NCBI GenBank assembly: GCA_029233985.1
Contig: JARGOK010000002.1
Span: forward strand, 1 to 64,000
Direction of reading: 5' to 3'
Source: Candidatus Altimarinota bacterium
GTDB lineage: Bacteria > Patescibacteriota > Gracilibacteria > JAUYGZ01
DNA length: 64,000 nucleotides
The notes below the pieces were generated by a model, which was given only the letters and a program-made list of their open reading frames with translations, was not told where the DNA came from and ran no database searches. Positions 8,811-59,885 of this stretch are shown piece by piece (position 1 is the first letter of the stretch; the number at the start of each line of letters is the position of its first letter). A program made the translations under genes and the position numbers.

Positions 8811-10430
8811 ATGACCAAATACATTTTCGTTACTGGTGGAGTCTGTTCATCTCTTGGAAAAGGGATCGCTTCCGCCTCTTTGGGTAATCTCTTAAAGGCG
8901 AGTGGGTTTAAGGTCTTCATGCAAAAACTCGATCCCTACTTAAATGTAGATCCTGGAACAATGTCTCCATTTCAACATGGTGAAGTATTTGTGACAGACG
9001 ATGGAGCAGAAACAGATCTGGATCTTGGCCATTACGAAAGATTTATAGACGAGCCACTCAGCAAACATTCTAGCGTGACCTCAGGAAAGGTCTATACAGA
9101 AGTCCTCAACAAAGAGCGAAAAGGTGATTTTTTAGGAAAAACGATCCAAGTGATTCCTCATATTACCAATGCCATTAAAGAAAAGATTATTGAAGCAGGA
9201 AAAAGCTCAAAGGCAGATATTATAGTTGTTGAAATCGGAGGAACCGTAGGAGATATCGAAGGCCAACCTTTTCTTGAAGCAATTCGTCAGATACGACACG
9301 AAATGGGGTATGACAACACGCTTTTTGTTCATCTCACGCTACTGCCATGGTTGGCAGCTGCCAAAGAACTCAAAACCAAGCCAACACAACAATCAGTACG
9401 ACTTCTCCGTTCTATCGGAATACAACCAGATATGATCATTGCTCGTGCAGATCAAAAAATCCCAAAGGCTCTTCTTCAAAAAATCTCGTTATTTTGTGAT
9501 GTGGATGAAGAAGCCGTTATTCCAGCAACAACTGCTGAGACCATATATCAAGTACCTGTTGAATTTGAAAAACATAATGTTTCAAAGTTTGTCGCACAAA
9601 GACTCAAGCTTAAAAAACATAGCCCTACCCTAAAGACCTGGAAAAAGATGGTCAAAAATATTCACACAGCAAAGAAGACTCTTAAAATTGGGCTTGCAGG
9701 CAAATACAATGCTCTCGACGATGCCTACTTATCTGTTATAGAGGCGATCAAAGCAGCCAGCTACCATCAAGGATTCAAGCCTGAGGTTGTTTGGATTGGC
9801 ACAGAAAAAATCGAAAAAAATGACGCAGATGAAATCAAAAAAATGAAATCTTGCGATGGAATTGTTGTACCTGGAGGGTTTGGGAAGAGAGGTGTAGAAG
9901 GAAAGATTGAGGTGGCCAAGTACTGCCGTGAAAGAAAGGTACCATATCTTGGAATATGTCTTGGTTGTCAGATTATGACTATAGAATTTAGTCGAAACGT
10001 TGCAGGTATTCCAGGAGCCAATTCACAAGAATTTGATCCTAAAGCAACCAACCAAGTGATTAAATTTCTTCCTGGACAACACGAAAACAAGTCAAAAGGA
10101 GGTACTCTTCGTCTTGGGGCATCAGATTGTCATTTAGAAAAAGGATCCCTGGCTCATAAAATATACGGAAAAACTATCGTACAAGAACGCCATCGGCATA
10201 GATATGAAGTCACTACAAATGATTCCAACCCCTACCTCAAAACATTAGAATCAAACGGTTTATGGTTCTCAGGAAAATCTCCTGATGGAAGTCTTGCAGA
10301 GGTTATAGAAATTAAAGATCATCCTTTCATGATTGGTAGCCAATACCATCCAGAATTCAAATCTCGACCACATCGCCCACATCCTCTTTTTTTGGGCTTG
10401 GTAAAAGCAGCTGCAAAAAGAAAAAAATAA
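8811..10430 (+). CDS. pyrG: CTP synthase
   Basis: The 539-residue protein is full length. The N-terminal synthetase domain (1 to about 270) starts TKYIFVTGGVCSSLGKGI, the P-loop-like ATP site, and has the conserved LDPYLNVDPGTMSP and EIGGTVGDIEGQPF. The C-terminal class I glutaminase domain has GGFGKRG, the nucleophile elbow GICLGCQ (Cys; Met is more usual after LG) and the catalytic His-Glu in QYHPEFKSRP. It makes CTP from UTP, ATP and glutamine. It stands alone behind its own promoter. No other pyrimidine gene is in the window. Confidence 0.98.
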   Translation: MTKYIFVTGGVCSSLGKGIASASLGNLLKASGFKVFMQKLDPYLNVDPGTMSPFQHGEVFVTDDGAETDLDLGHYERFIDEPLSKHSSVTSGKVYTEVLNKERKGDFLGKTIQVIPHITNAIKEKIIEAGKSSKADIIVVEIGGTVGDIEGQPFLEAIRQIRHEMGYDNTLFVHLTLLPWLAAAKELKTKPTQQSVRLLRSIGIQPDMIIARADQKIPKALLQKISLFCDVDEEAVIPATTAETIYQVPVEFEKHNVSKFVAQRLKLKKHSPTLKTWKKMVKNIHTAKKTLKIGLAGKYNALDDAYLSVIEAIKAASYHQGFKPEVVWIGTEKIEKNDADEIKKMKSCDGIVVPGGFGKRGVEGKIEVAKYCRERKVPYLGICLGCQIMTIEFSRNVAGIPGANSQEFDPKATNQVIKFLPGQHENKSKGGTLRLGASDCHLEKGSLAHKIYGKTIVQERHRHRYEVTTNDSNPYLKTLESNGLWFSGKSPDGSLAEVIEIKDHPFMIGSQYHPEFKSRPHRPHPLFLGLVKAAAKRKK

Positions 10431-10623: not shown

Positions 10624-11691
10624 ATGAAATCCCTTAAGAAAAAAGCTCTTCAGCAATACCAATCTCATGAAGGAAACTATCAGATTTGCACCTCCTTTCC
10701 TTTAAAAAAAGAAGAAGATCTTGCCACCATGTATTACCCGGGGATAAATGATGTCATTGAAAAAATTGAGAAAAAACCGGCAAACCAGCACAAGTTTTGT
10801 AGTCTTCCGTTTTCAGTGGGGGTTATTTCCAGTTGCAAAACAACGCAGTATCCTATTATCTCTGCAAAGGCAGCACTGCTTTCGCATGTAGCGGCACTCA
10901 ATGCCATCCCTCTGACCTTAAAATATGGAAAGCCTCAGAACATCCCTACAATTCTCAATCAGCTCTCACCAAATTTTCAGGCCTATTACGTAACGAATGT
11001 TTCTCAGCTAGAAGAAGAGATTATACGAGATAACATAAAGAAAATCGATCGACCTGTGATTTTCCACACCGAATCTATGGCTTTAGGAGTAATTGCTTCT
11101 GCTTTGGCAGCTGCAAGGATGATGAAATCAAAACCTGCAAAAGTGCATATCACATTGGAGGGTTCTGATCGCCTTGCAAAAGAGATCACCGCACATCTCA
11201 AGTCTTACAAATTTTCAAACATTACCCTCTTAGATGAAGACGGTCCACTATACGCAAAGAAACCAATGATGAATCGTGACAAAATTGAGCTTGTAAACAT
11301 TATAAAATCAAAAAAAGACCATCGATCACGAGATGAGGTTTTAGGTGCGACAGAAATATATATTTCAACAATGCACCAAAACATCAGCTCACAGCTTTCT
11401 TCCAAGCTAAATGCCAAAGCCACAATAATTGCTCTCAATTCAGAAGAGATTGTCAAACAAAGCAAACAGTCACTTATTTCAACTCTCCCACATCTCGAAA
11501 ACCATATCTCAGACCTTCACATCGCTGCCATCATGCTTTCAGCAGCGTGTATTGGAAAAGATATCGACGGGAAAACTTTAAAAAAAGCCACTGAATCAAT
11601 GGCAAACTTTCACCCAACTCCAAAAGGAAAAAAGATTATTCCAGGACTATTGGATAAAAAATTGGTGACAAAGGGTTTGAAAAAAATGTAG
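10624..11691 (+). CDS. Divergent, probably inactive malic-enzyme-like protein
   Basis: The layout is that of short bacterial malic enzymes. An N-terminal LKKKALQQYQ helix is followed by DLATMYYPGIND (equivalent of the catalytic-Tyr motif YTPGVA), ISAKAALLSHVAALNAIPL (equivalent of GKAxLFKxFAGIDAVPI) and a C-terminal Rossmann-like half. The metal-binding signatures are replaced: the FEDI-AP-CFEIE region reads YVTNVSQLEEEI, and FHDDQHGTA reads FHTESMALG. The second lysine of the KAxLFK motif is also gone. Malate decarboxylation therefore looks unlikely; a binding or regulatory role is possible. ATG 10624 fits the family N-terminus. Longer starts (TTG 10531, ATG 10576) add residues with no counterpart. 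Confidence 0.6.
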   Translation: MKSLKKKALQQYQSHEGNYQICTSFPLKKEEDLATMYYPGINDVIEKIEKKPANQHKFCSLPFSVGVISSCKTTQYPIISAKAALLSHVAALNAIPLTLKYGKPQNIPTILNQLSPNFQAYYVTNVSQLEEEIIRDNIKKIDRPVIFHTESMALGVIASALAAARMMKSKPAKVHITLEGSDRLAKEITAHLKSYKFSNITLLDEDGPLYAKKPMMNRDKIELVNIIKSKKDHRSRDEVLGATEIYISTMHQNISSQLSSKLNAKATIIALNSEEIVKQSKQSLISTLPHLENHISDLHIAAIMLSAACIGKDIDGKTLKKATESMANFHPTPKGKKIIPGLLDKKLVTKGLKKM

Positions 11692-56734: not shown

Positions 56735-57592
56735 TTAACGGCCAGAAAGATCTCCGCCCCAATGAAGCTTGGTGCGAAGTGTTTGGTAATAAGAATTTTT
56801 TGATAAGCGAACAAGTTTGAGGGTCTTTGTAGAACGTTTTATTTTTACCACATCATTGTCTTTTAAGTGAAATCCCGTCTGACCATCCATTGTCAGATAG
56901 GTCCGTCCCTGGCTATTACTCATGCTCACTTTTACTCGGCTGGTAGGTGGTAAAACTATCGGTTTTTGAGTAAAAGAATGAGGAGCTATGGGGGTGAGGA
57001 TCAAACAATCAACCTTTGGGGAAACAACAGGACCACCCGCAGAAAGAGAATATCCTGTCGAACCTGTCGGCGTAGAAACAATCAATCCATCTGCCATAAA
57101 GGTCGTTAGTTTTAAGTCATCTACAGTTGTTCGCAGTGGTACCATACGGGCCAAAGCGTCACGTGCAATCGTCACCTCATTCAATGCTCTTTGTGTAAAA
57201 GCCCGACGTTTCCCACGTAAAACAGTACAACGAGCCAACATTCGCTTGTCAATATAGTATTTTTTCTTAAGGACCTTATCCAAGATTTTTTCAAAATGTT
57301 TTCCAACTCCTTCAGAGAAAAAACCAAGACGTCCCATATTGATAGAAAGAACCATACTATCAAAATTTTTCATATACTGGACGGTTCGAAGCAATGTTCC
57401 ATCGCCACCAAAGGAAATAATCAGGTCATAAGGATTGTGAAAATCCAAACCAGGCTTCCGATTTGGCACCAATACACATGTTCCAGGACACAAATCAACC
57501 TTGCATTTATTTTTTTCCAAATATTTCACTGTTTTCTTTACAACGTTATCAGGATCAGTGAGACCAGTCTTTACCGTAATAGCAACGTACAT
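56735..57592 (-). CDS. nadK: NAD kinase
   Basis: The 285-residue protein has the nucleotide-binding FGGDGTLLRTVQYM, INMGRLGFFSEG, LNEVTIARDA (compare LNDVVIxR), PTGSTGYSLSAGGPVVSP and ILTPIAPHSFTQKPIVLP. It phosphorylates NAD to NADP. With NadA it indicates that at least part of NAD metabolism is encoded. Confidence 0.96.
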   Translation of the reverse strand: MYVAITVKTGLTDPDNVVKKTVKYLEKNKCKVDLCPGTCVLVPNRKPGLDFHNPYDLIISFGGDGTLLRTVQYMKNFDSMVLSINMGRLGFFSEGVGKHFEKILDKVLKKKYYIDKRMLARCTVLRGKRRAFTQRALNEVTIARDALARMVPLRTTVDDLKLTTFMADGLIVSTPTGSTGYSLSAGGPVVSPKVDCLILTPIAPHSFTQKPIVLPPTSRVKVSMSNSQGRTYLTMDGQTGFHLKDNDVVKIKRSTKTLKLVRLSKNSYYQTLRTKLHWGGDLSGR

Positions 57593-57679: not shown

Positions 57680-57835
57680 GAAAAAACTTTATTTTGTCAC
57701 CTCGATTGAAATGGAACAGTATCGGAGTACAGCAGAGAGATCTCCACTCAATATGCATGTAGAAGAGATTTCTCCGCTACGTGTTTAAGCTTTCGCTTTG
57801 AATACTCCGGTCGAAATAACAAAATTGTATACTTC
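57680..57835. repeat. Intergenic inverted repeat relic upstream of aspS
   Basis: Holds GTCACCTCGATTGAAATGGA, AGAGAGATCTCC, AGAGATTTCTCCGCTACG and TCCGGTCGAAATAACAAAA. The two ends and the two inner segments face each other, a pattern of dispersed repeats built around TTTCGA..GGAG and GGAGAAATCTC. No gene within 57593-57873. Confidence 0.5.
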
Positions 57836-57873: not shown

Positions 57874-57901
57874 TTGAATCACAAATTATATTCGGTAAGA
57901 T
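57874..57901 (+). promoter_or_regulatory. Promoter of the aspS leader
   Basis: TTGAAT (57874-57879), 16-nt spacer, TAAGAT (57896-57901). The transcript would start near 57908, about 14 nt before the leader ORF, matching the short leaders of other genes here. An overlapping TAGAAT (57901-57906) could also act as -10. Confidence 0.55.
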
Positions 57902-57921
57902 AGAATCAATTAACGTCCACT

Positions 57922-57963
57922 ATGCACAGCAACAACGATATCAATATTAATGATAGCAACTAA
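57922..57963 (+). CDS. aspS leader peptide rich in Asn and Asp
   Basis: The 13-codon ORF reads MHSNNDININDSN and stops at TAA 57961-57963. Asn occurs at 4, 5, 8, 10 and 13, Asp at 6 and 11. It lies between a promoter and a pair of alternative hairpins upstream of aspS. The stop is 8 nt before the antiterminator strand, so a ribosome finishing the peptide would cover that strand, while one stalled at Asn or Asp codons would not. This is the design of leader-peptide attenuation. The ORF has no Shine-Dalgarno motif, as is usual in this genome. Confidence 0.6.
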   Translation: MHSNNDININDSN

Positions 57964-57971
57964 AGCACCTC

Positions 57972-58025
57972 TGAGCTGGACATATTCTAATAAACAAGTT
58001 TCCAGCTCACATGCTGGTTTTTTTT
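57972..58025 (+). promoter_or_regulatory. Transcription attenuator of aspS
   Basis: Three segments: 1 TGAGCTGGA (57972-57980), 2 TCCAGCTCA (58001-58009) and 3 GCTGG (58013-58017). Segments 1 and 2 form a 9-bp antiterminator. CCAGC in segment 2 and segment 3 form a 5-bp terminator stem with a 6-nt loop, followed directly by eight T (58018-58025). The two are mutually exclusive. Predicted logic: high charging lets the ribosome reach the stop and hide segment 1, so the terminator forms; low Asp/Asn charging stalls it earlier, the antiterminator forms and aspS is read. Confidence 0.65.
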
Positions 58026-58124
58026 GTTCTGCATAATGGACAAATGATCCCAAAACCAGGCTACTCCGATTATCGTTGCATTCCCAATCAATCCTTCTTT
58101 CTCCATATCCTTCATCCTTTCCCC

Positions 58125-59885
58125 ATGTACCGTTCTCACCTCAATAATGAACTCAGAAAAGAACATCTCGACACCGAAGTCACCCTTTCCGGATGGGTCC
58201 ACAGACGTCGTGACCATGGTGGACTAATCTTCATCGATCTCCGTGACCGGTATGGACTGACACAGGTTGTTTTTGATCCAGAGCACAATAAAAACACCCA
58301 TGTCGTAGCTGAACAACTCCGATCTGAGTACGTCATCACCATCAAAGGAAAAGTTCGACAACGACCTGATGGTCAGACTAACGAAAACCATGAAACAGGT
58401 GAGATCGAAGTAATCGTAAACGAAGTAACCATTCTCAATGAATCCAAAACTCCTCCATTTGAAATCGATCAAGACAAACATGTCGGTGAAGAACACCGAC
58501 TCAAATACCGATATCTCGACTTGCGAAGAGACCGAATGAAATCAAATATCTTACTCAGAGCTGAAGTCACCACATTCATTAGAAATTATATGGTGGATAA
58601 CGGCTTCGTAGAAGTCGAAACCCCGATGCTCGTGAAAGGAACGCCAGAAGGATCACGAGAGTACCTTGTGCCTGCTCGTCTCTACCATGGAAACTTTTAC
58701 GTGCTGCCACAATCTCCCCAACAAATGAAACAGCTCCTCATGGTGGCGGGATTCGATAAATACTTTCAAATAGCCAGATGCTTCCGAGACGAAGACCAGC
58801 GTGGAGACCGACAACCAGAATTTACTCAGCTCGATCTCGAAATGTCTTTTGTCGAACAAGAAGACGTCATGAAACTCAATGAAGGACTTGCTATAGCCCT
58901 CGCAAAGAAATTTATGCCAAGCACTCCAATTCAAGAAGAACCCTTTCCAGTTCTGTCATTCCACGACTCCATGAACCGATATGGATCTGACAAGCCTGAT
59001 GTCAGATTTGATATGGAACTCACCGATATAACCGAACTCGTAAAAGACTGTGACTTCAAGGTCTTTAGTGGAGCAGAAAGTGTCAAGGCCCTCAAGATTG
59101 AAAATTATGCTGACAAACCACGATCATACTTCGAAACAAAACTCACTGACTACGCCAAAGACCATGGAGCGAAAGGACTCGCCTACATCATGTACATGGA
59201 AGACGGACCAAAAGCCCCTATCCTCAAATTCCTTGGAGACGATTTGGTAGCTAAAATCACCGAAGCGACAGGTGCCAAAACAGGAGACGTGGTCTTCTTC
59301 GCGGCTGACGAATGGAGTATTGCTTGTGAAGTCCTCGGCGCACTCAGAAAACGGATCGCTAAGGAAGAAAACCGTGTTCCTACGGACAAAGTCGCATTTT
59401 GCTGGGTCAATGACTTCCCAATGTTCGAAGTCAGCAAGGAAACAGGTGCCGTAGGTGCCATGCATCACCCCTTCACCAGACCAAAGAAAGGACACGAAGA
59501 GATGGTCCTCACCGACCCTATGAACGCACTCTCAAACGGATACGATCTCGTCATGAATGGAAACGAAATCGGAGGTGGATCAATACGGATCCATGAACGA
59601 GAACTCCAAAATAATATCTTTAAAGCCCTCAAAGTAGCACCAGAAGATATCGAATCACGATTTGGACACATGCTCGAAGCCTTTGAGTACGGTGCTCCTC
59701 CACACGGAGGGATCGCCTGGGGTCTCGATCGTCTCGTGATGATCTTCGCAAACGAACCAAATATTCGCGAAGTAATTGCCTTTCCAAAAGATCAGAAGGC
59801 CAAAGATCTGATGTTTGGTGCTCCAAGTCCGATGCCAGCGGATCAAGTAGCTGAGGCTGGTGTAGAAATTATCAAGGAAGACTAG
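58125..59885 (+). CDS. aspS: Aspartyl-tRNA synthetase, probably non-discriminating
   Basis: The 586-residue bacterial-type enzyme starts MYRSHLNNELRKEHL. The anticodon-binding OB domain has GWVHRRRDHGGLIFIDLRDR; class II motif 2 is FRDEDQRGDRQPEFTQ and motif 3 includes GLDRLVM. A GAD-like insertion is present (VEDPTD-like stretch around 290-420). His31 and Gly83 (RQRPDGQ) match residues reported, as I recall, for non-discriminating AspRS that aspartylate both tRNA-Asp and tRNA-Asn; discriminating enzymes such as that of E. coli have Leu at the His31 position. ATG 58125 fits the family start. The in-frame ATG at 58011 lies in the attenuator and is excluded. A 99-nt leader separates the terminator T run and the start. 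Confidence 0.96.
   Translation: MYRSHLNNELRKEHLDTEVTLSGWVHRRRDHGGLIFIDLRDRYGLTQVVFDPEHNKNTHVVAEQLRSEYVITIKGKVRQRPDGQTNENHETGEIEVIVNEVTILNESKTPPFEIDQDKHVGEEHRLKYRYLDLRRDRMKSNILLRAEVTTFIRNYMVDNGFVEVETPMLVKGTPEGSREYLVPARLYHGNFYVLPQSPQQMKQLLMVAGFDKYFQIARCFRDEDQRGDRQPEFTQLDLEMSFVEQEDVMKLNEGLAIALAKKFMPSTPIQEEPFPVLSFHDSMNRYGSDKPDVRFDMELTDITELVKDCDFKVFSGAESVKALKIENYADKPRSYFETKLTDYAKDHGAKGLAYIMYMEDGPKAPILKFLGDDLVAKITEATGAKTGDVVFFAADEWSIACEVLGALRKRIAKEENRVPTDKVAFCWVNDFPMFEVSKETGAVGAMHHPFTRPKKGHEEMVLTDPMNALSNGYDLVMNGNEIGGGSIRIHERELQNNIFKALKVAPEDIESRFGHMLEAFEYGAPPHGGIAWGLDRLVMIFANEPNIREVIAFPKDQKAKDLMFGAPSPMPADQVAEAGVEIIKED

Follow-up and report, generated by a model that had tools for sequence, protein, structure and literature searches.

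Ribosome-mediated attenuation is known from the trpL, pheL, thrL, hisL and ilvL leaders of Proteobacteria and from leaders of Actinobacteria. The region in front of aspS in a 64,000-nt window of a Candidatus Altimarinota (Patescibacteria) genome, the whole stretch of DNA analyzed here, resembles these attenuators in having a short leader ORF dense in regulatory codons, followed by mutually exclusive antiterminator and terminator structures before a structural gene. It differs from them in its target, aspS, and in its leading codon, that for Asn, which is made by the pathway predicted to begin with AspRS, as well as in having three segments without a strong 1:2 hairpin, in its very short 5' UTR without a Shine-Dalgarno sequence, and in its occurrence in Patescibacteria. 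In Clostridium, aspS/gatCAB is reportedly under the control of a two-codon T-box, a description attributed to Saad et al. 2013; there, too, charging of tRNA-Asn controls the AspRS/GatCAB route, but the tRNA binds the RNA directly and a leader peptide is absent. Among leader peptides, uORFC-8-2, located before cysS in Rhodobacterales, likewise attenuates an aminoacyl-tRNA synthetase gene through its codons, but these are Cys codons for CysRS, i.e., for the enzyme's own amino acid, and the sequence is unrelated (PMC8632094). A His leader before hisZ/hisS in bacilli, thought to be possibly convergent, also controls a synthetase gene outside Proteobacteria, and differs by its His codons and its host phylum, Firmicutes (PMC2965389). 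In the part of the literature that our search covered, no report was found of ribosome-mediated attenuation in Patescibacteria or of aspS leaders, in agreement with the first-pass annotation of this DNA, which knew of none for aspS in this phylum. The mechanism is textbook; for its target gene, its codon logic and its phylum, no report was found in the literature that could be searched. We regard the aspS leader region as a ribosome-mediated transcription attenuator, with a probability of roughly 0.87.

Elements and folding of the aspS leader region

Every element named in the first-pass annotation was found at its position, including the 13-codon leader ORF with its five Asn and two Asp codons and the three segments that form either a 9-bp antiterminator or a 5-bp terminator followed by eight T. 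The features of the region are as follows.

57874-57906, + strand: weak promoter-like stretch, TTGAAT-N16-TAAGAT (57874-57901) or with another -10, TAGAAT (57901-57906)
57915-57919, + strand: segment 0 (GTCCA), possible partner of the segment 1 sequence TGGAC (57977-57981) in the MFE structure of 57905-58030
57922-57963, + strand: leader ORF MHSNNDININDSN, 13 codons with 5 Asn and 2 Asp, stop TAA at 57961-57963
57972-57980, + strand: segment 1 TGAGCTGGA, antiterminator 5' arm, paired with 58001-58009 over 9 bp without a mismatch
58001-58009, + strand: segment 2 TCCAGCTCA, common to antiterminator and terminator
58002-58025, + strand: intrinsic terminator CCAGC-TCACAT-GCTGG-T8, ending 99 nt before aspS
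58125-59885, + strand: aspS, aspartyl-tRNA synthetase of 586 aa (NCBIfam aspS_bact), with H31 and G83

The leader ORF starts with ATG at 57922-57924 and contains the Asn codons AAC, AAC, AAT, AAT and AAC and two GAT codons for Asp. With 7 of 13 codons it is the frame densest in Asn/Asp among 95 aspS upstream regions from the class and a few close records. No Shine-Dalgarno sequence precedes the leader ORF, and the aspS start likewise lacks one. The putative promoter TTGAAT-N16-TAAGAT is present where the first-pass annotation had placed it (TTGAAT at 57874-57879, a 16-nt spacer and TAAGAT at 57896-57901), but its 8 of 12 matches to the sigma-70 consensus are no better than chance; stretches with 9/12 matches number 45 in the region against 43.6 in shuffles, i.e., they occur at chance frequency. 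The NAD-kinase-like gene upstream of the leader (56735-57592) is divergent, on the opposite strand, and the terminator at 58002-58025 therefore serves no upstream gene of the + strand. A dispersed repeat (GATTTCTCCGCT...ACTCCGGTCGAAATAACAA), similar to widespread intergenic palindromic repeats, adjoins aspS in two genera (57760-57825 of the window, and upstream of aspS at locus L007).

In the terminator, which folds with a z of about -4, GCTGG (58013-58017) pairs with CCAGC (58002-58006) in a stem of 5 bp, followed by eight T (58018-58025). The perfect 9-bp helix of the antiterminator uses the 5' arm of the terminator, and the two structures are mutually exclusive. Pairing of segment 0 is minor in the ensemble, with a probability of at most 0.11 in a shorter transcript. 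Folding with a ribosome was modeled as ensemble folding of the transcript with the ribosome footprint kept unpaired, and its values refer to equilibrium, not to kinetics. Whichever sense codon of the leader occupied the A site, the antiterminator reached about 0.8-0.98, and with the ribosome at the stop codon the terminator reached 0.98, so that the model gives the proposed switch between the two alternatives. The first-pass annotation took the stop codon to be placed so that a ribosome there masks segment 1, but segment 1 begins 9 nt past the stop and only its first bases would be masked; the model flips at the stop with a footprint extending 15 nt or more beyond the first base of the P site and no longer does so at 14 nt. 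With no ribosome on the leader, the model favors read-through (0.96), unlike in the trp leader of E. coli, and untranslated transcripts would therefore escape termination.

Attenuators in the same genome and family, and other readings of the aspS region

In 864 kb of the genome scanned for terminators before genes, four attenuators of the same layout were identified in addition to that of aspS, giving at least five predicted ribosome-driven switches in this genome. Their gene names were taken from reading the translations.

L179 about 10668-10860 (G000:C5 about 154670-154860), minus strand: ilvB attenuator, leader MNASFVILVNVVGIPLN (V/I/L codons)
L177 1720-1860 (G000:C5 about 105720-105860): thrC attenuator, leader MKNTIIIIDL (Ile run)
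L240 15390-15535 (G000:C3 about 355390-355535): hisS attenuator, leader MIQKLSHHHSHFIHLI (His codons)
L232 18105-18225 (G000:C3 about 198105-198225): pheA(-tyrA) attenuator, leader MNTPLYSFGTFFYFSF (Phe/Tyr)

In all four, the leader codons suit the gene, with segment 1 located at the stop codon or at most 12 nt from it. In the ilvB attenuator, the antiterminator forms around AGGGTT/AGCCCT at the stop and the terminator carries T10. According to the fold model, the ilvB, hisS and pheA leaders are antiterminated at most regulatory codons, change to the terminator when the ribosome comes close to the stop and flip more robustly than the aspS attenuator; the thrC leader of the source genome is less clean, flipping at the first Ile codon. 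Each of the three genera of the family keeps the pheA attenuator, in which TGAGAAG, TCTTCTC and T7 are invariant and the leader peptides vary (MNASNNNWFYFYFFSA and MSISKAFYSFYFWNFSA in the others, L271 and L272). The thrC leader is present in both genera of the family having thrC (MNKNIIIISP in G002) and also in another family (MKKLALSLLIIVIIIL in G027/G036); these further thrC leaders are those of loci L212, L214 and L215. No hisS leader was found in G001 and G002 of the same family, and G024 (L268) has a separate hisS leader with HHH. Upstream of cysS (L234) a terminator is present and a Cys leader is absent, and the asnS upstream region contains no leader.

Some further observations were made at these loci. 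The sequence GTGTGAA is common to the spacers between segments 1 and 2 of hisS (L240) and pheA (L232, L271), which may point to a common origin. In G013:C33 (L213), a T-box-like element (AATAAAGGTGGTACCGTGG plus terminator), matching RF00230 below the gathering score, lies about 180-230 nt upstream of thrC and replaces the leader attenuator. A Trp-rich frame near position 8850 of L245 was rejected since it is out of frame with a small Gly/Cys-rich ORF (MKTTINGGGDGGGCGNCGCGFMLNGGCGGQCNCDCK; about 8815-8915), which is followed by a terminator and a hydrolase gene.

At aspS itself, the first-pass annotation had set beforehand that a lack of conservation in close relatives would count against the attenuator, and the leader is indeed absent from two same-family genomes, both of other genera, and from 92 further class members; among the 95 aspS upstream regions, the best N+D score of the others is 6/12, positioned far upstream. 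The AspRS of G001 is 79% identical, and its aspS upstream DNA aligns only over the dispersed repeat; in G002 little intergenic space is left before aspS. Since attenuators appear and vanish within the family, as seen for hisS, an aspS leader confined to a single genus is unsurprising.

This absence from relatives would also be expected if an AT-rich intergenic region held, by chance, a small frame rich in N and D along with an intrinsic terminator unconnected with it; AT-rich DNA favors Asn codons, and the aspS leader was picked post hoc. Of 20,000 dinucleotide shuffles of the intergenic region (532 nt), 10 contained an ORF in which N and D made up 7 or more of 12 residues, and none contained such an ORF with a terminator no more than 100 nt away; because the leader was chosen for looking striking, these figures, like those of the genome scan, are not clean p-values. 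The scan comprised two samples totaling 800 kb plus the window, i.e., 464 kb including the window and a further 400 kb. Two ORFs of at least 7 N+D per 12 occur in the 464 kb, and only the aspS leader has a terminator after it; the further 400 kb contain three more, none with a listed terminator upstream of a gene. The other ORF of the 464 kb, N-rich and located at L181 (5736-5822), was rejected as a second leader because it lies in a different frame within another ORF and has no terminator. Among the 162 terminator-like sites of the 464 kb, that of aspS has the longest competing helix, with 9 bp, and at the 143 sites in the further 400 kb such helices never exceed 8 bp. Coincidence would have to account for the longest competing helix of about 300 terminator-like sites, for leader codons that fit the downstream gene and for the four siblings elsewhere in the genome, and we consider it very improbable.

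Alternatively, the terminator could end a separate sRNA or unannotated transcript of the + strand, with aspS unattenuated and transcribed from its own promoter in 58026-58124. The gap of about 100 nt between terminator and aspS is roomy enough for a promoter, but the upstream gene is divergent, the region matches no Rfam family at gathering or relaxed thresholds, and an sRNA would leave both the 9-bp antiterminator and the Asn codons unexplained, which makes a separate transcript improbable. Control of aspS by a T-box or another tRNA- or metabolite-binding riboswitch has a precedent in the T-boxes that control aspS-gatCAB elsewhere (Saad et al. 2013, cited in PMC4206432), and some class members contain T-box-like matches. 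A covariance model match is absent from the region and from the genome, the RNA ahead of the terminator has too little structure, and a leader ORF is present; the probability of such a riboswitch is close to nil.

Type of AspRS and the aspS leaders of Chloroflexota

The AspRS of the genome contains H31 and G83, which we take to be the residues of bacterial non-discriminating AspRS. GatB, GatC and AsnRS were found, AsnA and AsnB were not found in the genome (96.7% complete), and its tRNA-Asn carries U1-A72. The combination of GatCAB, AsnRS and a U1-A72 tRNA-Asn without an asparagine synthetase means that asparagine is made only on tRNA (PMC4206432). The enzyme is thus probably a non-discriminating AspRS with which tRNA-dependent asparagine synthesis begins, a prediction from sequence that would make sense of the Asn codons in the leader. 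These features are consistent with the first-pass view that the leader codons fit the two likely tRNAs of the enzyme, as far as its predicted specificity goes. The stalling logic proposed there, in which uncharged tRNA-Asp and tRNA-Asn hold the ribosome, works in the ensemble fold model; since AspRS appears to open the tRNA-dependent route to Asn, the main signal is probably narrower, namely charged tRNA-Asn.

In Chloroflexota, too, Asn/Asp-rich leaders precede aspS, at no fewer than 20 of 74 loci (L043, L044, L051, L056, L066, L067, L074, L076, L077, L079, L080, L083, L091, L093, L094, L095, L102, L103, L110 and L113), most of them with antiterminators of 10-11 bp. A leader such as MNGNISFANNNNNDNDDNPRVVGRSFAG often directly follows the -10-like TGCTATAAT, and the 5' arm of the terminator (ATCGCCC...GGGCGAT) is at most loci complementary over 10-11 bp to the 3' part of the leader. 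The helices vary in sequence by locus and keep their pairing (CGUUGGGCGA/UCGCCCAACG, GGGGCGGC/GCCGCCCC and CGGGCGGGAG/CUCUCGCCCG). In the fold model the terminator is favored at equilibrium in most of these leaders, so their switches would have to work through the order in which the RNA folds. The Anaerolineae aspS leaders match no Rfam family. They share with the Patescibacteria leader the target, the codons and the order of a leader followed by a terminator with a competing antiterminator, but segment 1 lies inside the leader ORF; as recognizable sequence in common with the leader of the window is lacking, the two probably evolved separately, by convergence. H31 is present in all leader-bearing AspRS, and the 11 of 11 Chloroflexota AspRS without H31 have no leader. 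The attenuator reading of the aspS region is accordingly supported by two independent lines, the siblings in the same genome and the Chloroflexota aspS leaders.

Proposed regulation and its meaning for Patescibacteria

In the proposed attenuator, RNA polymerase would start just upstream of 57922 and a ribosome would follow through the 13-codon leader. With ample charged tRNA-Asn (and tRNA-Asp), the ribosome would reach the stop at 57961 and shield the start of segment 1, upon which the 58002-58017 hairpin could form and transcription would end in the T tract. With too little charged tRNA-Asn, the ribosome would stall on an Asn or Asp codon and segment 1 would pair with segment 2; the resulting helix would block the terminator and aspS would be transcribed. 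As tRNA-Asn is probably also a substrate of AspRS, charged for GatCAB, and asparagine synthetases were not found, more AspRS would raise the supply of asparagine.

We find it on balance likely that the amino-acid regulon of this family (pheA, thrC, ilvB, hisS and aspS) is run by ribosome-mediated attenuation, with AspRS controlled as an Asn-biosynthetic enzyme via Asn codons, and that such control of AspRS had a separate origin in Anaerolineae with a non-discriminating-type AspRS. Patescibacteria are commonly viewed as having shed regulation and amino-acid synthesis. A set of attenuators such as this would imply transcription-translation coupling tight enough for such control, and the attenuators may serve as a read-out of the amino acids that Patescibacteria cells make and monitor. 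The placement of Asn codons before a non-discriminating-type AspRS, probably twice independently, suggests an enzyme regulated by the product of its pathway and not by its namesake amino acid, a link that is testable.
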